From contig MUZD01000001.1 in assembly GCA_002155105.1 (NCBI GenBank), positions 1 to 64,000 on the forward strand: a stretch of 64,000 bases of DNA, given 5' to 3'. How positions within the stretch are numbered: position 1 is the first letter of the stretch; the number at the start of each line of letters is the position of its first letter. A model generated the notes under the pieces. That model did not search any database, was not told the DNA's origin, and was given only the letters and a program-made list of their open reading frames with translations. Both the position numbers and the translations under genes were made by a program. Shown piece by piece: positions 6,010 through 41,001 of this stretch. Source of the stretch: Sedimentibacter sp. SX930. GTDB taxonomy: Bacteria; Bacillota; Bacilli; Lactobacillales; Aerococcaceae.

Positions 6010-6169
6010 ATCGTTCGCTCCTGACTCTGTTCGCCGCCTGATTGTAGCGGTCGTCTCTTCTGAAGTATAACAGAAAACCGGGCATCCATCCCGCATAATC
6101 GGGACAAAAACGCAGCAAGTGGCATATAATTGGGACAGAAGAATCAAAGTAGGAAGCGAGGGAGCAGGC

Positions 6170-8623
6170 ATGGACCATATCAGCATCATCGGCGCCAAGG
6201 AAGGGAATCTGAAGAACATCACGGTGGACTTGCCCCGGAACAAATGGATCGTCCTCACAGGGGTATCCGGTTCCGGGAAAACGACTCTGGCGATGGATGT
6301 GCTCTATCAGGAATGCCAGCGCCAATATCTGGAGGCAATCGGCTACCAAGGGATCCGTAAACCGAACATCGATGCGATCCGCAATGTGTCTCCCGCTATC
6401 CAAATCCAGCAGCAAGCCTACAATAAAAATCCGCGTTCGACTGTGGGAACGGTCACGGACATCTATACCGATCTGCGGATGCTGTTCGAGAAGTTGAGCA
6501 CGAGGGACTGCCTGGCTTGCGGGAAGGAATTCAGTTCGGCAGAGTGCCGCGAGGAAACCGAAAAGACCGCCGATGAGTTCAAGGTGTTCCAGTATTGTCC
6601 TCACTGTAATCACCGAATGGAGAAGCTGACCCGCACCCATTTTTCCTACAACACCAGAGAAGGTGCCTGCGCAACTTGCCAGGGCATGGGGGAAGTGCTG
6701 ACGATCGATGAGAAGCGGGTGCTCCGTGAAGAACTGGCGCTTGAAGAGGGAGCGGTCGTTTTTTGGGAAAAACGCTACCGGGATTACCAGCTGGAGTCGC
6801 TGGTTGCCGCTAGTGACCATTACGGGATCCCGCTAAAACTAAACACGCCGGTGAAGGACTTTACGCCTGCGCAGCGCGTGCTGTTGCTGCATGGGGCCGA
6901 AAGTGAAGAGATGCATCAGTTGTTCCCGGATGTGCAGGCGCCCCGGACGATTGCCGAAGGCCACTATGAAGGGGTCCTGCCGAACCTTTGGCGCAGAATG
7001 GCGGACAAAAAAGGGGCTTCCAAATTCCAGGAAGCCTACTTTGAATCGGTCATCTGCCCGGAATGCCACGGCGAACGACTGAACGAGCTGAGCAGGAGCG
7101 TGACTGTGAAGGGAACGCGCTTGCCGGAACTGTCCAGTTCATCATTGACTGGTCTTATGGATTGGGTCAGCAAGCTCGAAGAAAATCTGAAACATTCGGA
7201 ACAACTGTTGGCGGGTGTCTATGTCACAGATTTGAAGACCAAACTGAAACGGATCCTGAAATTGGGATTGGGCTATCTGTCGCTCGACAGGCAGACGATG
7301 ACGCTGTCGGGAGGTGAAGCGCAACGTCTGCGGTTGGCAGCTGTCCTTGATTCGGATCTGACGGGAGTCATCTACATACTGGATGAACCGACAATCAGCC
7401 TGCATCCGAAAGATACAGAAGGGCTCCTGACGGTCCTGCGATCGCTGAGGGATAAAGGCAATACGGTCCTCGTCATCGAACATGATACAGCTGTCATGGC
7501 GGCAGCGGACTACCTGATTGATATCGGTCCGGGAGCCGGGAAATACGGGGGCGAAGTCATCGGCTCGGGAACGCTGCAGCAAATCAAGGAACAAGCGACA
7601 TCCGTCACCGGTGCCTATCTGAACAGCAAGTCGGAACCGCGCGAACTTTTCCGCAAAGGATCCGGTGATTTCATCGAGGTGAGCCAAGCGGACAAGCATA
7701 ACCTCCGGAATCTGACAGTCCGTTTCCCTATCGGCTGTCTTATCTGTGTCACCGGCGTATCGGGGTCCGGAAAATCGACGCTCGTGTTCGATGTGCTGGC
7801 GAAAGGGGATACGGACCAGCCGGAGAAACCGAATCAGGTGAACGGAACCGGCTCATTCGACCGGATCGTCATTGTGGAACAGGCACCCCTCACGCGGATG
7901 AAGCGTTCGAATGTTGCGACATATTCAGATGCCTATACGGAAATCCGGAAAATCTTCGGCCGGCAGCAGACTGCCATCGAAAAGGGAATGACCGCCAATC
8001 ACTTTTCCTTCAATGTGAAAGGGGGGCGCTGCGATCATTGCGAAGGCTTGGGAGTCGTCACAAACAACCTGTTGTTTTTTGAAGATCAGGAAGTTCCTTG
8101 CCCTGTATGTTCGGGCAAACGCTTCAAGGACGAGGTCCTGTCCGTGGCTTATCGCGGCCATTCGATCACCGCAGTGCTGGGATTGTCGGTTGAGGAAGGC
8201 GCAGAACTGTTTGCGGATTCCCCAAAAATCAGTGCCATCCTGAATCTTCTGCAGGATGTCGGTCTCGGCTACCTCGAGCTCGGCCAGACGACAACGACTT
8301 TATCCGGCGGCGAAGCGCAACGGCTCAAGTTGGCAGTGGAACTCCTCGCAAATCAGGGGAAAAAGAATCTCTATCTGATCGATGAACCGACTACCGGTCT
8401 GCATCCGCTCGATGTGGAAAAGTTCCTGAAATTATTGGATCGGATGGTTGATTCCGGCAGCACGGTGGTCGTTGTGGAACACAATCAGCAGATTATCGGA
8501 GCGGCTGATTGGATCATCGACCTTGGTCCGGGAGGCGGGGATGCCGGCGGTAGGATCATTGCGGAAGGAACGCCATCGGACATCCGGAAAAACCCAAATT
8601 CGGTGACGGGAAAGTTCATTTAA
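6170..8623 (+). CDS. UvrA-like ABC ATPase (short paralog of excinuclease subunit A)
   Basis: This 817-residue protein has the UvrA layout of two fused ABC ATPase modules. Walker A motifs are GVSGSGKTT (about residues 34-42) and GVSGSGKST, and the signatures are LSGGEAQRLRLA and LSGGEAQRLKLA. Zinc-knuckle cysteines are visible (CLACG, CPHC, CATC, CPEC, CDHC, CPVC). It is about 120 residues shorter than standard UvrA, which fits the UvrA2/drug-resistance class that lacks much of the UvrB-interaction region. The role is probably DNA-lesion or DNA-ligand handling independent of UvrB. GAGGGAG before the ATG at 6170 sets the start. Confidence 0.88.
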   Translation: MDHISIIGAKEGNLKNITVDLPRNKWIVLTGVSGSGKTTLAMDVLYQECQRQYLEAIGYQGIRKPNIDAIRNVSPAIQIQQQAYNKNPRSTVGTVTDIYTDLRMLFEKLSTRDCLACGKEFSSAECREETEKTADEFKVFQYCPHCNHRMEKLTRTHFSYNTREGACATCQGMGEVLTIDEKRVLREELALEEGAVVFWEKRYRDYQLESLVAASDHYGIPLKLNTPVKDFTPAQRVLLLHGAESEEMHQLFPDVQAPRTIAEGHYEGVLPNLWRRMADKKGASKFQEAYFESVICPECHGERLNELSRSVTVKGTRLPELSSSSLTGLMDWVSKLEENLKHSEQLLAGVYVTDLKTKLKRILKLGLGYLSLDRQTMTLSGGEAQRLRLAAVLDSDLTGVIYILDEPTISLHPKDTEGLLTVLRSLRDKGNTVLVIEHDTAVMAAADYLIDIGPGAGKYGGEVIGSGTLQQIKEQATSVTGAYLNSKSEPRELFRKGSGDFIEVSQADKHNLRNLTVRFPIGCLICVTGVSGSGKSTLVFDVLAKGDTDQPEKPNQVNGTGSFDRIVIVEQAPLTRMKRSNVATYSDAYTEIRKIFGRQQTAIEKGMTANHFSFNVKGGRCDHCEGLGVVTNNLLFFEDQEVPCPVCSGKRFKDEVLSVAYRGHSITAVLGLSVEEGAELFADSPKISAILNLLQDVGLGYLELGQTTTTLSGGEAQRLKLAVELLANQGKKNLYLIDEPTTGLHPLDVEKFLKLLDRMVDSGSTVVVVEHNQQIIGAADWIIDLGPGGGDAGGRIIAEGTPSDIRKNPNSVTGKFI

Positions 8624-8643
8624 GGCCAAACAAGTTAAAATGA

Positions 8644-8672
8644 TTGACAGACGCAAGGAAAATCGCTATCTT
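8644..8672 (+). promoter_or_regulatory. Candidate sigma-A promoter of the small leader transcript
   Basis: A perfect TTGACA (8644-8649) is followed after 17 bp by TATCTT (8667-8672), just past the uvrA-like stop. It would start a transcript across the Met/Cys-rich mini-gene toward the LysR gene. The -35 is strong and the -10 is weak (4 of 6). Confidence 0.5.
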
Positions 8673-8710
8673 ATTAGAAAGCGATGAGGAAAAGAAGGGG
8701 AGGCAGAACC

Positions 8711-8812
8711 ATGCAGAAGATGATGTGTTGTATGTGCGGATGTAAGAAACATGCAGGAATATTCTTATCATCTTTTGATCTCCACAACCGGGCGTTTTTG
8801 CCGGCTCTGTAA
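8711..8812 (+). CDS. Met/Cys-rich 33-residue peptide, candidate leader peptide
   Basis: This small open frame starts MQKMMCCMCGCKK, so eight of the first eleven residues are Met or Cys. AAGGGGAGG lies seven bases before its ATG, one of the best ribosome binding sites in the window. The rest of the peptide (to FLPAL) is unremarkable. A second mini-frame of 15 codons (8821-8868, containing MHPHP) follows directly after AAAGGGG. An intrinsic terminator comes at 8877-8915 and then a LysR regulator. The layout suggests a translated attenuator sensing charged tRNA-Cys or tRNA-Met. A small metal-binding peptide (CCxCxC) is the alternative. I recognise no family. Confidence 0.5.
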   Translation: MQKMMCCMCGCKKHAGIFLSSFDLHNRAFLPAL

Positions 8813-8876
8813 AGGGGATTATGGGGCAGATTATGCATCCGCATCCAAGTGAAGCGCTGAAATGGTGATGAATACT

Positions 8877-8915
8877 CGTGCATGTGTGTTTTGTTGACTC
8901 GCATGCACTTTTTTT
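8877..8915 (+). terminator. Intrinsic terminator upstream of the LysR gene (attenuator candidate)
   Basis: The stem GTGCATG / CATGCAC (8878-8884 with 8902-8908), extendable by two pairs, is followed by seven T. It lies between the Met/Cys mini-gene and the LysR start, so any transcript from the 8644 promoter must pass it. The upstream CATGCA at 8750-8755 could pair with the left arm as an alternative fold. Confidence 0.75.
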
Positions 8916-8963
8916 GTGGAATTGATGGGAACCCATCGGAAAATAGAGCGAGGTGGCAATAAT

Positions 8964-9896
8964 ATGAATCTGCAGCAATTGCGATATGTCATAACAGTGG
9001 CGAAATACGGCACTTTTCGGGAAGCCGCAAGGCAATTATATATGGCGCAGTCCAGTCTGTCGTCAAGCATCAAAGATCTGGAGGAAGAATATGGCATCCA
9101 GATCTTCGAGCGTTCCAAAAAAGGCATCGAAATAACCAAAGAAGGAGCTATGCTTTTGGAATTCGCCGATCAGATCGTAGCCCAAGCGGACCAATTGGAT
9201 TACCGCTATCTGTCTGCAACCGAAAACAGAAGACTGTTTTCCGTTTCGAGCCAGCACTATGATTTTGCCTCGGAAGGCTTTGCCCGACTGGTTTCGGAAA
9301 AGAAGGAAGAATCACTGAATTTCCGTTTCCTGGAGACGAGCACCTCGAAAGTGATGGAAGATGTGCGGGATGCCGTCAGTGAAGTCGGATTCATCTATCT
9401 GAATGATTTCAACGGGAAGGTCATCAAACAGTATCTCGAAGCATTCGACCTGAAATTCGATCCGCTGATCGCGTTCCAACCGCATGTATTCCTCAGCGAG
9501 TTCCATCCGTTGGCGAAGAAGGAGAGAATAACGCAGGAGGAACTCCATCCGTACCCCGTCATTTCCTTCGATCAAAGCAAAAACAGCACGCTGCAGCTGA
9601 TGGAGGAATCGATCCAGGTCGACCAGAATGTCCAACGGATCAGCGCAAGCGACCGCGCGACCGTGTTGAATCTGTTGTCTGTGACGAATGGCTACTTGGT
9701 CGGTTCAGGTCTCCTGAAATCGAACACGCAGGACCACATCGTCGTGGTGCCGATGGATGTCGATCAAAAAAATACGATCGGCTTCATCTATTCAAAAGTG
9801 CGGCCGCTCAGCGCGATCTCCAAGCGTTACATGGAAATCGTAAGGGAACTTTTGGAGGGAGACCAACGCATCGAGCTGACTGATCATGTGGACTAA
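8964..9896 (+). CDS. LysR family transcriptional regulator (CmbR/MetR-like)
   Basis: This 310-residue regulator has a winged helix-turn-helix at residues 1-60 (LQQLRYVITVAKYGTFREAA) and a periplasmic-binding-protein-like effector domain from about residue 90. It is clearly paralogous to the LysR protein at 35928-36839 next to metF: both have QLRY, SLSxxIKDLEEE, KGIxxTxEG and matching effector-domain blocks. LysR proteins of this type in lactic acid bacteria control cysteine and methionine genes. A role in sulfur control is therefore likely but inferred. The ATG at 8964 follows GAGGTGG. No target gene is adjacent. Confidence 0.88.
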   Translation: MNLQQLRYVITVAKYGTFREAARQLYMAQSSLSSSIKDLEEEYGIQIFERSKKGIEITKEGAMLLEFADQIVAQADQLDYRYLSATENRRLFSVSSQHYDFASEGFARLVSEKKEESLNFRFLETSTSKVMEDVRDAVSEVGFIYLNDFNGKVIKQYLEAFDLKFDPLIAFQPHVFLSEFHPLAKKERITQEELHPYPVISFDQSKNSTLQLMEESIQVDQNVQRISASDRATVLNLLSVTNGYLVGSGLLKSNTQDHIVVVPMDVDQKNTIGFIYSKVRPLSAISKRYMEIVRELLEGDQRIELTDHVD

Positions 9897-35927: not shown

Positions 35928-36839
35928 ATGACCTTAAAACAACTAAGATATATGCTTGCAGTCGCGCAATACAAATCGATCAACGAAGCTGCAAAAAAAT
36001 GCTTCATTTCGCAACCTAGCCTCTCGAACGCCATCAAGGATCTTGAGGAAGAAATCGGCCTGGAGCTGTTCATCCGGACCGCCAAAGGCATCACTTTGAC
36101 CGCAGAAGGCAGCGAATTCCTGAAGTACGCCCAGCAGGTGATCGAGCAAGCGGAGTTGCTGGAGCAGCGCTACCTCGACAAGAAACCGGCCAAACAATTG
36201 TGTTCCATTTCGACTCAACATTACGCGTTCGCGGTCAGCGCGTTCGTGAACATGATCAAAAAGAGCGGAGCGGATGAATACAAGTTCACACTGCGTGAGA
36301 CGCGGACCCATGAAATCATCGAGGACGTTAAAAGTTTCCAGAGTGAAATCGGCATCCTCTATCTGGATTCGTTCAACCGCAATGCGCTAAAAAAAATCCT
36401 GCAGGAGAGCCAATTGGAGTTCCATCCTTTGTTTGAAGCGGAACCGCACATCTTTGTCAGCGTCCGCAATCCCTTGGCGTCCAAACAGAGCGTCACCTTG
36501 GCGGATCTTGAGGATTATCCCTACCTGTCGTTCGAACAGGGCGAGCATAATTCCTTTTATTTTTCGGAAGAGATACTCAGCACCGTCTTCCATAAAAAAA
36601 GCATCCTGGTCAGTGACCGCGCGACTTTGTTCAACCTGGTGATCGGTTTGGATGGCTATACCATCTCCACCGGCGTACTTAGTGAAGAGTTGAACGGCAC
36701 GGATATCGTTTCGGTTCCGTTGGATGTCGAGGACCGGATGGTGATCGGTTGGATCGCCAATAAAAAAGCCGGAATCAGCCGGCAGGCGGCCGCCTATATC
36801 AAGGAGCTGAAGGCAGTGATCCGGACCTATGGGAATTAA
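35928..36839 (+). CDS. LysR family regulator of methionine genes (MetR/MtaR-like)
   Basis: This 303-residue protein has an N-terminal winged helix-turn-helix (LKQLRYMLAVAQYKSINEAA, QPSLSNAIKDLEEE) and a LysR effector domain. It lies upstream of metF-metH in the same orientation, and a MET-box-like palindrome sits between. This arrangement fits the MtaR/MetR regulators of streptococci and relatives, which respond to homocysteine or O-acetylserine-type coinducers. It is a paralog of the regulator at 8964-9896. GAGGAGAGGG precedes the ATG. Confidence 0.88.
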   Translation: MTLKQLRYMLAVAQYKSINEAAKKCFISQPSLSNAIKDLEEEIGLELFIRTAKGITLTAEGSEFLKYAQQVIEQAELLEQRYLDKKPAKQLCSISTQHYAFAVSAFVNMIKKSGADEYKFTLRETRTHEIIEDVKSFQSEIGILYLDSFNRNALKKILQESQLEFHPLFEAEPHIFVSVRNPLASKQSVTLADLEDYPYLSFEQGEHNSFYFSEEILSTVFHKKSILVSDRATLFNLVIGLDGYTISTGVLSEELNGTDIVSVPLDVEDRMVIGWIANKKAGISRQAAAYIKELKAVIRTYGN

Positions 36840-36876: not shown

Positions 36877-37038
36877 GCTGAGTATATTTTTTTGGTGTTA
36901 CTCTATATCTTCATTTCATGGCATACTATTGGAAATAAATGACTTCTTGTGGAAGTCATCAACTGACATGATCAATTGTACACAAAGTAAGTGCGCTTAA
37001 CATTTGCCACTTTGAACAAATTGAGGGAGGACATGATT

Positions 37039-37938
37039 ATGAAGATTAGAGATATGATCAGCAAAGGGGAACCAACCGTTTCGTTTGAAATTTTTCCGCC
37101 GAAAAGCAGTTATTCCCTTGAAACGGTGTTCGACACATTGGGCGAATTGAAGGATCTGCATCCCGATTTCATTTCTGTGACGTACGGCGCCGGCGGGACA
37201 GCCCAAAGCAACACGGTCGAAATTGCATCGCGCATCAAAAAGGATTTCGGAATCGAATCGATCGCCCATTTGACCGGCTGCACCTCGACAAAAGAGGGCA
37301 TGAGACGGACACTGGCATCGATCAAGGATAGCGGCATCGAAAATATCCTGGCTTTGCGCGGGGATATCCCGCAAGAAAAATTGGCGGACAAGAATTGGAA
37401 TCCGGAATACCGCTATGCTTCCGAGCTCATCGACGACATCAAAGCAGCAGGCGATTTTTCGATCGGAGCGGCCTGCTATCCGGAAGGACATGTCGATTCC
37501 ATCAACAAAGTGGATGACCTGAAAAATCTGAAAAGGAAAATGGACCATGGAGCTGACTTCATGATCACGCAGCTTTTCTACGATAATGATCTTTTCTATC
37601 AGTTCAAGGAGAAATTGGATCTCGTCGGCATCGAACAGCCGGTCATCGCCGGGATACTGCCGGTCCTGAACATCAAACAAGTGAAACGGATCCAGGAAAT
37701 TTCCGGCTGCAACCTGCCGCCGAAATTCCTGCGGATACTCGAAAGATACGAACATGATCCGGCATCACTGCAGGAAGCTGGCATCGCCTACGCAGTCGAT
37801 CAGATCATTGATCTGCTTTCTTCCGGAGTGGATGGCGTCCACATCTACACGATGAACAAGCCTGACGCGACAAGAAGGATCATGGAGAACATCTCCTGTG
37901 TCCGCAAGGCGGTCTGCAGAAAAGAGCCGCAAAGATGA
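37039..37938 (+). CDS. metF: 5,10-methylenetetrahydrofolate reductase
   Basis: This 299-residue flavoenzyme makes methyl-THF for methionine synthesis. Typical MetF blocks are EPTVSFEIFPPKS (with the catalytic Glu), PDFISVTYGAGGT, HLTGCTSTKEGM, ILALRGDIPQ, GAACYPEGH and DFMITQLFYDNDLFYQF. GAGGGAGG eight bases before ATG 37039 sets the start, while the ATG at 37033 is too close. Its stop overlaps the next gene (ATGA), tying it to the MetH reactivation protein. Confidence 0.95.
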   Translation: MKIRDMISKGEPTVSFEIFPPKSSYSLETVFDTLGELKDLHPDFISVTYGAGGTAQSNTVEIASRIKKDFGIESIAHLTGCTSTKEGMRRTLASIKDSGIENILALRGDIPQEKLADKNWNPEYRYASELIDDIKAAGDFSIGAACYPEGHVDSINKVDDLKNLKRKMDHGADFMITQLFYDNDLFYQFKEKLDLVGIEQPVIAGILPVLNIKQVKRIQEISGCNLPPKFLRILERYEHDPASLQEAGIAYAVDQIIDLLSSGVDGVHIYTMNKPDATRRIMENISCVRKAVCRKEPQR

Positions 37939-38600
37939 AGACGGATCTGAAGCTGGTCGCAAAGTATCTAGGCTTCGGCAACAAACAACCGGACGAACGG
38001 ACAAAGAACGATATGGAGATGATCGCTGCCCAGTTTGAGCAAGCAATCACGGGGAAATGGACTTATGGACACTATCTCCTGGACCACTCAGTTGAGGGCT
38101 TGATCACGCTGGAGGGGACCGCTGTTGTGTTGGAAGGAAAAAGCATCAACCGCACGCTTAAGCGCTGCAAAGAAGCCTATATCATGGTCTGCACATTAGG
38201 CGCGCAAGGAGATTTCATCATTGAACGCAATAAAATGATGTCCCCGACTTTGGGCATGATCGCTGATGCTTGTGCATCCGCATTCGTCGAGACGATCGCG
38301 GACAGGTGCCAGCAAGAAATCGAAAGTCAACTACCAACGGGAGCCTCATTGACTTTCCGTTACGCGCCCGGATACGGGGATCTGCCTTTGGCCACCAACA
38401 AAACGCTGCTCGGGGAATTGCAGTCCGACAAACGGATCGGAGTCCATCTGACGGATTCGATGCTGATGACGCCAAGAAAATCGATAGTGGCGATATTGGG
38501 TGTTCTGGAGGAAGGCATCTCCAAAGGGAAGAATCATCGCTGCGGGAACACAAGCTGCAGCGAGTGCGATCTGAACGACAGCTGCACGGCCAGAAGTTAA
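37935..38600 (+). CDS. Stand-alone MetH activation-domain protein
   Basis: This 221-residue protein resembles the C-terminal reactivation domain of cobalamin-dependent methionine synthase. It has a conserved RYAPGYGDLPL segment, which corresponds to the RPAPGY motif that binds SAM in MetH, and LTDSMLMTPRKSIVAILGV. A C-terminal cysteine cluster (CGNTSCSECDLNDSC) may bind metal, as in related clostridial proteins. It should remethylate inactive cob(II)alamin on the short MetH encoded next door, using SAM and an electron donor. The 4-bp overlap with metF shows coupling. Confidence 0.85.
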   Translation: MKTDLKLVAKYLGFGNKQPDERTKNDMEMIAAQFEQAITGKWTYGHYLLDHSVEGLITLEGTAVVLEGKSINRTLKRCKEAYIMVCTLGAQGDFIIERNKMMSPTLGMIADACASAFVETIADRCQQEIESQLPTGASLTFRYAPGYGDLPLATNKTLLGELQSDKRIGVHLTDSMLMTPRKSIVAILGVLEEGISKGKNHRCGNTSCSECDLNDSCTARS

Positions 38601-38619
38601 GTTAGGGGGGACAAAAAGA

Positions 38620-41001
38620 ATGGATATCAGAAAACAAATTGGGGAAGAACTGCTTCTCTTCGATGGAGCGATGGGCACGATGCTCCAGAAATACGGGATG
38701 AAAGCCGGCCAAAACCCGGAAGCGTTGAATCTGGAGGATCCCGCGCTGCTAAGCCGGATCCATCGGGAATACGTCGAAGCCGGCGCACAATTCATCACGA
38801 CAAACACATTCGGCGCCAATGCCTACAAACTGCAGGAAACGGGCTATTCCGTCGCGGAAGTGGTGACTGCTGCAGTTGGAATTGCCAAAGCGGCAACGGC
38901 AGGATCAGGGGCGCAGGTGGCGCTCGATATCGGACCGGTAGGGAAGATGATGAAACCGATCGGATTGCTTGATTTCGATCAGGCTTACGACTATTTCCGC
39001 GAGCAAGTGGTGATTGGGGCTGCGGCCGGAGCGGATCTGATCCTCATCGAAACGATGTCGGACTTGGCGGAAATGCGCGCAGCCGTTTTGGCGGCGAAAG
39101 AAAACAGCAACCTGCCGATCTTCGCGACGATGACCTTTACGGATGACGGCAACACTTTGACCGGGACCGAGCCGGAGATCATGGCGCTCTCTTTGGATGC
39201 TTTGGGTGTGGATGCACTGGGCGTGAACTGTTCATTGGGGCCTAAGGAGCTGATTCCCATCATCAAAAGGATATTGGCATTCACAAATACGCCAGTGATG
39301 GTGCAGGCGAATGCAGGTATCCCTGTGACGGAAGCAGGAGTCGCCAAGTATAATGTCGTTTCCGCGGCTTACCTTGAGGTCGCGAAGGAATTGGCCGGTT
39401 TGGGGGTTTCTGTTATCGGCGGGTGCTGCGGTACGACCCCGGAATACATCCGTGATCTGCAGCAGGCCACAACTTTTTTTGCAAAGAGGGAAATCAATCA
39501 ATTGAAACGTTATGTCTGTTCCGCGCAGAAGAAGGTTTGCTTGGATGGCCAGATCACCCTCATCGGTGAACGGATCAACCCGTCAGGCAACAAGGCTTTG
39601 AAGGAACAATTCGTGGCAGGCAATCCGTTGGCGGCCATCAAAGTCGCTTTCGAACAAGTCCAAAAAGGCGCGGATGTGCTGGACGTCAACACCTCTTTGC
39701 CGATGATCGACGAAACGGATTACATGACAAAAATCATCGATGGCATGAGCGGCCTGGTGGAAGCGCCGCTGCAGTTCGATTCGACCAAACCGGAAGTGCT
39801 TGAAGCAGCTTTGAGGCGCTACAGCGGCGTTGCAATCGTCAATTCGGTCAACGGGAAAGAATCCTCGATGGCCGAAATCTATCCGATCGTCCAGAAATAC
39901 GGCGCCTTTGTCGTGGCCTTGTGCCTGGATGAAGCCGGTATTCCGGATGATGCGGTTGGCCGGACCAAGGTCGCCCAGAAGCTGATTGATCGAGCGGGAG
40001 CGTATGGCATCGGTGCAGAGCGCTTGTTGGTGGATTGCCTTGTGCTCACTGCGGCTGCCCAGCAGAAAGCGGTCATGGAGACGTTGAAGGCATTGCGTTG
40101 GGTCAAGGAAAACACGAAGGCGTTGACTACTTTGGGGTTGAGCAACGTTTCCTATGGACTGCCTTTCCGAGCCTTGATCAACCGAACCTATTTTGCGATG
40201 GCCCTGACTTCGGGATTGGATACGGTCATCATCAACCCAGGGGCCGACGGAATCGTCGACACGATGCGCGCCTTCAATGTTCTTTCAGGGCAAGACGAAG
40301 GTGCCATCGACTATATCGACTACAACAACAAAAAGGCTGTGGTCAAATCCGATGGTCCCAAGCAGGAAAACGTGGTCCGTTCCTACCGGGAAATGCTGTT
40401 GGAGGGCGACGAAACAGGTATCATGAAGGCAACCAACGCCTTGCTTAAAGACAATACGCCATTGGCTGTCGTGGACGATCACATCGTGCCGGCATTGGAT
40501 GAAGTCGGCAAGCTCTATGAACAGAAAAACATCTTCTTGCCTCAGTTGATTCGTGCTGCCGAAACGGCCGGAAAAGCTTTCGAGACGATCCGTGCAAAAC
40601 TTGCTGCAGGCAATGAGAAGCTGGAATCGAAGGGGACCATCGTGATGGCTACCGTAAGAGGGGATATCCACGATATCGGAAAGAATCTGGCGAAAGTTCT
40701 GCTTGAAAACTATGGCTACGACGTCATCGACCTGGGCAAAGATGTTCCGATTGAGGAGGTTGTGGCGGTTGCCAAGCAACATCAGGTCAAACTGGTCGGG
40801 CTGTCTGCGTTGATGACGACGACCGTCACTGCGATGGAGGATACAATCACAGCTTTGCGCGAGGCGGGTTTGCCTGTGAAAGTTTTCGTCGGAGGGGCTG
40901 TACTGACAGAAAAATACGCCAAAGCCATCGGTGCGGACTACTATTGCAAAGATGCCCGAGCCGGCGTCACCGTAGCCGAAGAAGTCTTCAGTGCAAACTA
41001 A
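38620..41001 (+). CDS. metH: Cobalamin-dependent methionine synthase lacking the activation domain
   Basis: This 793-residue enzyme transfers the methyl group from methyl-THF to homocysteine through cobalamin. Domains in order: homocysteine-binding barrel (residues 1-290, zinc cysteines in VNCSLG and GGCCGTTPEYI), pterin-binding barrel (about 310-570, GERINPSG, DVLDVNTS), cobalamin cap (about 580-660) and Rossmann-like cobalamin domain with DIHDIGKNL at about residue 683. The family of about 1,200 residues usually adds a C-terminal reactivation domain. Here that part is the separate upstream gene. GGGGGG precedes the ATG. Confidence 0.95.
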   Translation: MDIRKQIGEELLLFDGAMGTMLQKYGMKAGQNPEALNLEDPALLSRIHREYVEAGAQFITTNTFGANAYKLQETGYSVAEVVTAAVGIAKAATAGSGAQVALDIGPVGKMMKPIGLLDFDQAYDYFREQVVIGAAAGADLILIETMSDLAEMRAAVLAAKENSNLPIFATMTFTDDGNTLTGTEPEIMALSLDALGVDALGVNCSLGPKELIPIIKRILAFTNTPVMVQANAGIPVTEAGVAKYNVVSAAYLEVAKELAGLGVSVIGGCCGTTPEYIRDLQQATTFFAKREINQLKRYVCSAQKKVCLDGQITLIGERINPSGNKALKEQFVAGNPLAAIKVAFEQVQKGADVLDVNTSLPMIDETDYMTKIIDGMSGLVEAPLQFDSTKPEVLEAALRRYSGVAIVNSVNGKESSMAEIYPIVQKYGAFVVALCLDEAGIPDDAVGRTKVAQKLIDRAGAYGIGAERLLVDCLVLTAAAQQKAVMETLKALRWVKENTKALTTLGLSNVSYGLPFRALINRTYFAMALTSGLDTVIINPGADGIVDTMRAFNVLSGQDEGAIDYIDYNNKKAVVKSDGPKQENVVRSYREMLLEGDETGIMKATNALLKDNTPLAVVDDHIVPALDEVGKLYEQKNIFLPQLIRAAETAGKAFETIRAKLAAGNEKLESKGTIVMATVRGDIHDIGKNLAKVLLENYGYDVIDLGKDVPIEEVVAVAKQHQVKLVGLSALMTTTVTAMEDTITALREAGLPVKVFVGGAVLTEKYAKAIGADYYCKDARAGVTVAEEVFSAN

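Follow-up and report, generated by a model that had tools for sequence, protein, structure and literature searches.

The leader region upstream of lysR

Within the window, the 64,000-nucleotide stretch of DNA that was analysed as a whole, a gene for a LysR-type regulator is preceded by a promoter, a ribosome binding site, a short frame opening with a cluster of Met and Cys codons, and a terminator. The features of this region are as follows.

8644 to 8672, + strand: sigma-70 type promoter, TTGACA-17-TATCTT (sequence scan)
8695 to 8703, + strand: Shine-Dalgarno sequence AAGGGGAGG, 7 nucleotides 5' of the ATG
8711 to 8812, + strand: leader peptide gene MQKMMCCMCGCKKHAGIFLSSFDLHNRAFLPAL, 33 codons (frame listing and alignment)
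8751 to 8852, + strand: second mini-frame (ORF listing)
8878 to 8915, + strand: intrinsic terminator, hairpin 8878-8908 (helix 3:4) followed by seven T residues at 8909-8915 (folding, and matched changes in T. palustris)
8964 to 9896, + strand: LysR-type regulator gene, the presumed regulated gene (PF00126 and PF03466; ATG at 8964, stop codon at 9894-9896)

The arrangement of leader, terminator and LysR gene described in the initial annotation is thus real, down to the promoter, the strong ribosome binding site, the 33-codon frame, the second mini-frame and the T-tailed terminator. The ORF listing begins the leader frame further upstream, at an in-frame ATG at 8684; we took the ATG at 8711 as the leader start. 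Counted from there, Met occupies codons 1, 4, 5 and 8 and Cys codons 6, 7, 9 and 11, so that seven of the ten codons from 2 to 11 specify Met or Cys. Given the residue frequencies of 17 genes in the window, the chance of such a cluster is about 7e-9 per peptide, a figure calculated after the fact and uncorrected for the choice of cluster. The pattern MCCMC has a single occurrence in the source genome. A short ORF with a ribosome binding site downstream of a promoter, as would be sought in a candidate attenuator, is therefore present.

The terminator hairpin folds at -17.1 kcal/mol (z -2.85 against shuffled sequences), and its stem has one mismatch that is absent from the other 10 close genomes. 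It was missing from a simple terminator scan, and a simple promoter scan found sites no more common than in shuffled sequences (2 versus a mean of 2.1); promoter and terminator are both backed by folding and conservation. The region from 8672 to 8970, taken as a whole, folds no better than its shuffles (z -0.70).

Conservation and spread in Trichococcus

The window belongs to the genus Trichococcus. A search of 100 genomes with the leader DNA recovered the element in 11 of 12 genomes of the genus, and the addition of a genome of the same species (G115) brought the count to 12 of 13 Trichococcus genomes with the ribosome binding site, the MQKMMCCMCGCKK frame and the terminator. The sole exception, G007, is a genome only 51% complete. 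T. palustris (G009) gave only a partial DNA match in the 100-genome search (E 8e-4), and a further partial match, of 31 bases, was found in a genome of another genus (G036). A covariance model (R1) built on strands 1 and 2 of the leader RNA, which are defined in the next section, was run against 395 Lactobacillales genomes and matched 12: 11 from Trichococcus and G024. The G024 match (E 0.0018) was rejected because it falls inside a long coding frame that has no Met/Cys run. Judged by these sequence searches, and at their sensitivity, the element is genus-wide and genus-restricted.

Several other searches addressed relatives. MCCMC occurs in 21 of the 395 Lactobacillales genomes, 10 of them Trichococcus, and the reversed pattern, used as a control, in six; the 11 genomes outside the genus were set aside, their matches not being leader frames as judged by eye. 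For the next closest LysR genes, at 18 loci (L025-L042), we examined the upstream DNA of 10 (all genus g8), two of which have frames with at least two Cys codons and none a comparable Met/Cys cluster; R1 found nothing in the 18 loci at E<=1. Among 398 Bacillota genomes, ATGATGTGYTGYATG was found in the source genome and eight others. All eight were rejected, seven because they lie within open frames of at least 168 codons and one (L210) because it is not leader-like, so this sample contains no second Firmicute case.

The initial annotation had asked whether the Cys/Met codons and the terminator are kept in relatives while the remainder drifts, and this pattern is observed. Expressed as mean pairwise identity among 11 genomes, T. 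palustris left out, the promoter hexamers are invariant (100%), the segment from the ribosome binding site to the ATG (8697-8713) is 98.9% identical, codons 2-13 98.0%, codons 14-24 94.3%, strand 3 96.2% and the terminator 98.1%, compared with 84.5% for the linker (with 10 gap columns) and 84.8% for the terminal part of the UvrA-like gene that lies upstream. These 11 genomes are nearly identical and hold little codon-level information, although one (G004) has Gly in place of Cys codon 9.

T. palustris is the sole divergent genome. Its leader has a ribosome binding site and a frame beginning MKKMMCCMCCMMCYVKH, with 10 Met or Cys residues within codons 2-13 and a 9-nucleotide insertion of sulfur codons, MKKMMCCMCCMMC. 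A promoter, TTGAAT-17-TATACT, lies upstream, and the terminator helix is retained through matched changes. Since the UvrA-like gene of T. palustris lies about 8 kb away, the leader and lysR have remained together as a unit.

Downstream of the Met/Cys codons, the frame is much less constant. Its 3' part shifts frame in G002 and G008, ending at 50 and 51 codons, compared with 33 codons in the other nine of the 11; over all genomes, lengths of 33, 36, 50 or 51 codons were seen. Such variation bears on the idea that the frame encodes a functional small Cys-rich protein, metal-binding in the manner of a zinc ribbon and in some genomes split over two frames, with the terminator as its own 3' end and LysR transcribed from another promoter. 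A Cys-rich start and a good ribosome binding site would suit such a protein, and the best argument is the second mini-frame, in the +1 frame, which is intact with a C-x2-C motif in 6 of 12 genomes, taken with G002, where a one-base deletion fuses both parts into a single 50-codon frame with C-x2-C. Against it, the +1 frame stops early in three genomes (G115, G003 and G010) and lacks C-x2-C in G008 (T. ilyis) and in T. palustris, the frame ends vary as described, and the complementarity between strands 2 and 3 would be superfluous for a protein. We consider a small protein very improbable, and the second mini-frame has no evident part in the element.

Three competing helices

Folding of the leader RNA places the Met/Cys codons in the first of a series of strands that can pair in competing ways, the fourth strand being the 3' arm of the terminator.

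8714 to 8735, + strand: strand 1, the Met/Cys codons, pairing with strand 2 (fold of -18.9 kcal/mol)
8748 to 8777, + strand: strand 2, of which 8749-8777 pairs with strand 1 and 8748-8772 with strand 3 (folding, shuffles and swaps)
8861 to 8886, + strand: strand 3, the antiterminator partner of strand 2, its end forming part of the 5' arm of the terminator (folding, shuffles and swaps)

The antiterminator 2:3 (8748-8772 with 8861-8886) consists of 21 pairs at about -24 kcal/mol. In folding, helices 1:2, 2:3 and 3:4, the last with its U run, are present in 12 genomes, across which the 2:3 duplex has energies of -19.6 to -24.6 kcal/mol. In six of the 12, we shuffled one or the other partner 2000 times by dinucleotides, and in each test the observed energy was reached by 1 to 19 of the shuffles. 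The initial annotation had seen a weak point in the distance of about 130 nucleotides between the Cys codons and the terminator; this is no obstacle, as strand 2 bridges it by pairing with strand 3.

We also exchanged strands between T. palustris and the others in a set of seven genomes. Strand 2 of the other genomes pairs with T. palustris strand 3 at only -12.1 to -12.9 kcal/mol, versus -19.6 for the matched T. palustris pair, and T. palustris strand 3 pairs with strand 4 of the others at -11.9 to -15.7, versus -21.8 when matched. The reverse swaps had little or no cost (T. palustris strand 2 with strand 3 of the others, -20.1 to -23.5; strand 3 of the others with T. palustris strand 4, -18.0 to -20.2). 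For helix 1:2, exchanges among the seven genomes carried no penalty. Compensation relative to T. palustris is thus evident for only one direction of exchange.

A leader with a terminator could also be a riboswitch, a T-box or a protein-bound RNA in which the ORF is incidental, and T-boxes are matched at 27 places in the source genome (G000) at E<=0.001, with 15 of the matches above the cut-off. None of these is at the leader. The region has no Rfam family at the gathering threshold, nor does the T. palustris leader (L162); T-box RF00230 is not matched at the leader, and within the window only a tRNA gene passes the gathering threshold. The best conserved parts are the ribosome binding site, the Met/Cys codons and their pairing partners, which also argues against an incidental ORF, and we regard an RNA of this kind as hardly credible here.

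Predicted effect of ribosome stalling

For six of the 12 genomes, we blocked a ribosome footprint, assumed to be 28 nucleotides, at each codon in turn and calculated the pairing before and after strand 4 is made. In the source genome, the predicted probability of the antiterminator before strand 4 is 0.83-0.85 with A-site codons 2-9, 0.74 at codon 10 and 0.00 at codons 11-24, which leaves the fourth Cys codon (11) outside the range of antitermination. G006, G002 and T. palustris have similar ranges, extending to codon 11 in T. palustris. The antiterminator is weak in G003 (0.15-0.37 at codons 2-10). In G008 it reaches 0.74 at codon 2 and 0.67 at codon 3, which is Met in that genome, and does not exceed 0.12 over codons 4-11. 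The probability rises again with the ribosome just beyond strand 2: 0.76 at codon 26 in the source genome, up to 0.92 in G006, 0.58 in G002 and 0.50-0.59 at codons 26-29 in T. palustris. According to this model, the Met/Cys codons are not the only positions at which a ribosome raises the antiterminator.

When no ribosome is placed on the full RNA, the predicted probability of the terminator is 0.83-0.99, and at equilibrium in the complete RNA the terminator is mostly favored even with strand 1 blocked. Given that equilibrium favors the terminator once strand 4 exists, the switch must be kinetic, with 2:3 forming first.

These calculations bear on the direction of the switch. The pairing that the initial annotation noticed between about 8750-8755 and the terminator arm forms part of the antiterminator, but in the source sequence a ribosome stalled at codons 2-10 is predicted to leave strand 2 free to pair rather than blocking it. 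The expectation that stalling would favor termination holds in the stall scan of the source genome only at the fourth Cys codon; at codons 2-10, readthrough is predicted. The model thus indicates that starvation for Cys or Met should give readthrough.

Taken together, the conservation, the pairing and, in four of six genomes, the stall calculations point to ribosome-mediated attenuation of transcription by the classical 1:2 / 2:3 / 3:4 scheme, reading sulfur amino acid supply for lysR, a reading to which we assign a probability of about 0.8. That the element is a leader-peptide attenuator of the LysR gene is very probable, and that it senses the supply of Cys and Met is likely. With ample Cys-tRNA and Met-tRNA, the ribosome would pass strand 1 into strand 2 and prevent 2:3 pairing, the terminator would form and LysR would go untranscribed; in the absence of translation, the 1:2 hairpin would likewise let the terminator form. 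Under shortage of Cys or Met, a ribosome stalled at codons 4-9 would cover strand 1, 2:3 would pair ahead of the synthesis of strand 4, and RNA polymerase would continue into lysR. The LysR protein might then activate sulfur or cysteine genes; in T. palustris, cysK is the next gene downstream. The proposal of Cys/Met attenuation ahead of the LysR gene is accordingly supported by the comparative evidence, once the points on distance and pairing direction are corrected.

The RNA model addresses where a ribosome stalls, not why. A translation-coupled switch could respond to a cue other than starvation if the leader were an arrest peptide whose Cys and Met residues, redox- and metal-reactive as a matter of general knowledge, reacted with a metal, an oxidant or a drug in or near the ribosome tunnel. 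The sulfur-gene context in T. palustris and at unrelated loci (below) speaks against such a cue, as does the gain of Met/Cys codons in T. palustris without retention of an exact peptide, which a supply sensor would allow. We judge an arrest peptide unlikely.

Relation to known leaders

In the literature, as judged by titles and the beginnings of abstracts, we found no Cys/Met leader for Lactobacillales or Trichococcus, in agreement with the initial annotation, which knew of no sulfur leader of this kind in Lactobacillales, and no single leader combining methionine and cysteine codons. Genes for Cys and Met in Lactobacillales have been described under T-boxes, the SMK riboswitch and LysR regulators (PMC6004538, PMC3616900). 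The Met- and Cys-specific T-boxes described in Lactobacillus paracasei likewise control such genes by premature termination, but there tRNA binds the RNA directly, with no translated leader (PMC6004538).

The uORFC-8-2 motif, described upstream of cysS in Rhodobacterales, has a tandem-Cys uORF inside the first stem followed by a terminator stem with a U run, and readthrough is proposed when Cys-tRNA is short (PMC8632094). It differs in its alphaproteobacterial hosts, its aminoacyl-tRNA synthetase target and its two Cys codons, usually at positions 14-15, with no Met cluster mentioned in the account drawn on (PMC8632094); here, the target is LysR and Cys stands at codons 6, 7, 9 and 11. In mycobacteria, the polycysteine sORFs (Canestrari 2020, as cited in PMC9031893 and PMC13236596) also have a run of Cys codons whose speed of translation senses cysteine supply for downstream genes, but they are leaderless, are described as acting on translation, and precede genes of operons, not a LysR gene. 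Candidate Cys leaders upstream of cys operons in Actinobacteria resemble the present one in their short ORFs, Cys runs and downstream sulfur genes, and differ in that no conserved terminator hairpin was reported (PMC1262725). Leader peptide attenuation in Gram-positive bacteria has been described for His in Firmicutes (hisS*/hisZ; PMC2965389) and for a leucine-rich peptide in S. aureus (PMC5794164), which, as described, involve other amino acids and no sulfur LysR target. The Trichococcus element would be a small switch, perhaps responsive to Cys and Met alike, and would place a translated Cys/Met sensor above a transcription factor.

Similar Met/Cys leaders in unrelated bacteria

Short MMCCMC frames provide a search handle that has already turned up comparable leaders ahead of sulfur genes in bacteria unrelated to Trichococcus. 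A scan of an 84,980-species collection for GATGATGTGYTGYATGTGY gave 63 stretches, eight in Trichococcus and 55 elsewhere. In 45 of the 55, the site falls, in one frame or another, inside a stretch of 110 codons or more between stops, a threshold chosen afterwards; the remaining 10 loci hold 12 sites. Nine of these 12 are followed by a terminator-like hairpin at least as stable as -11.9 kcal/mol, computed without a shuffled control; that of L153 is weak, and L095 and L108 have none.

In the three Bacteroidota loci L095, L108 and L153, a SAM riboswitch just 5' of the frame is followed by a short frame ending MMMCCMC... and then by a metY-type gene (above the NCBIfam cut-off in L108, cut by the locus end in L095, and assigned by the Pfam Cys/Met PLP family in L153). 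The features of L153 are as follows.

2155 to 2279: SAM aptamer
2390 to 2408: stretch containing the Met/Cys codons
2564 to 3907: metY-type gene

The succession of a SAM riboswitch and a Met/Cys frame in these three loci possibly amounts to two-signal control.

The loci L091, L094, L128 (two sites), L142 (two sites), L143 and L146 have short intergenic MMCCMC frames with terminator-like hairpins; in most cases the gene that follows is sulfur-related or resembles a cystine transport gene. Downstream lie a cysH-type gene cut by the locus end (L146), a gene resembling rhodanese / 3-mercaptopyruvate sulfurtransferase (L094; below the NCBIfam cut-off, Pfam rhodanese above it), DUF1684 followed by metX (L143), and genes whose best matches, below the cut-off, are cystine-type ABC proteins (L091 and L128 site 2, which L142 site 2 resembles by eye). 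The PepV-like dipeptidase after site 1 of L128 and L142 (checked for L128) and the short protein after the site in L129 are not clear sulfur genes.

Given that the likeness of these loci to the Trichococcus model is absent or marginal (best E 0.048), the leaders outside Trichococcus likely arose independently. On a broader proposition, our opinion is evenly divided: that MMCCMC leaders have evolved repeatedly and independently, in several phyla, as a sensor of total sulfur amino acids. Such leaders would stand upstream of metY, cysH, cystine transport, metX or rhodanese genes, would drive a LysR master regulator in Trichococcus, and in some Bacteroidota would sit directly behind a SAM riboswitch as a two-signal device.

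The LysR gene and its sulfur context

The LysR protein is 38% identical to the metF-linked LysR encoded at 35928, in keeping with the kinship that the initial annotation had noted; none of its NCBIfam matches reaches the cut-off among those listed (25 of 50). It is a candidate for a sulfur-type, CmbR/CysR-like regulator of Cys/Met genes. The paralogue (35928-36839) adjoins genes that resemble metF and metH by eye (36991-41001), and has no Met/Cys leader upstream, also by eye.

The T. palustris LysR is 80% identical to that of the source genome. There, cysK (TIGR01139, 438.5 bits versus a cut-off of 351) is the next gene 3' of lysR, 175 nucleotides away on the same strand with no terminator listed between them, so that leader, terminator, lysR and cysK stand in a row on one strand (L162:4054-6453). 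T. palustris has a second copy of cysK elsewhere, 98% identical; the remaining Trichococcus genomes that carry this LysR have cysK at another place. The DNA upstream of cysK was aligned for a conserved LysR site, and no motif is claimed. In G109, a LysR of 47% identity lies 19 nucleotides after a cystathionine gamma-synthase-like gene.

None of the 27 T-box matches of the source genome is closer than 30 kb to either of its two cysK genes, which are of 79-85% identity. Several of these T-boxes precede genes that resemble metY, metA, methionine transporter genes and metE by eye, and two stand in tandem (L074/L076). On the other side of the leader, the UvrA paralogue at 6164-8623 of the window (819 codons, TIGR00630 above the cut-off) is present in all four relatives searched, each of which also has a longer homologue of about 40% identity.
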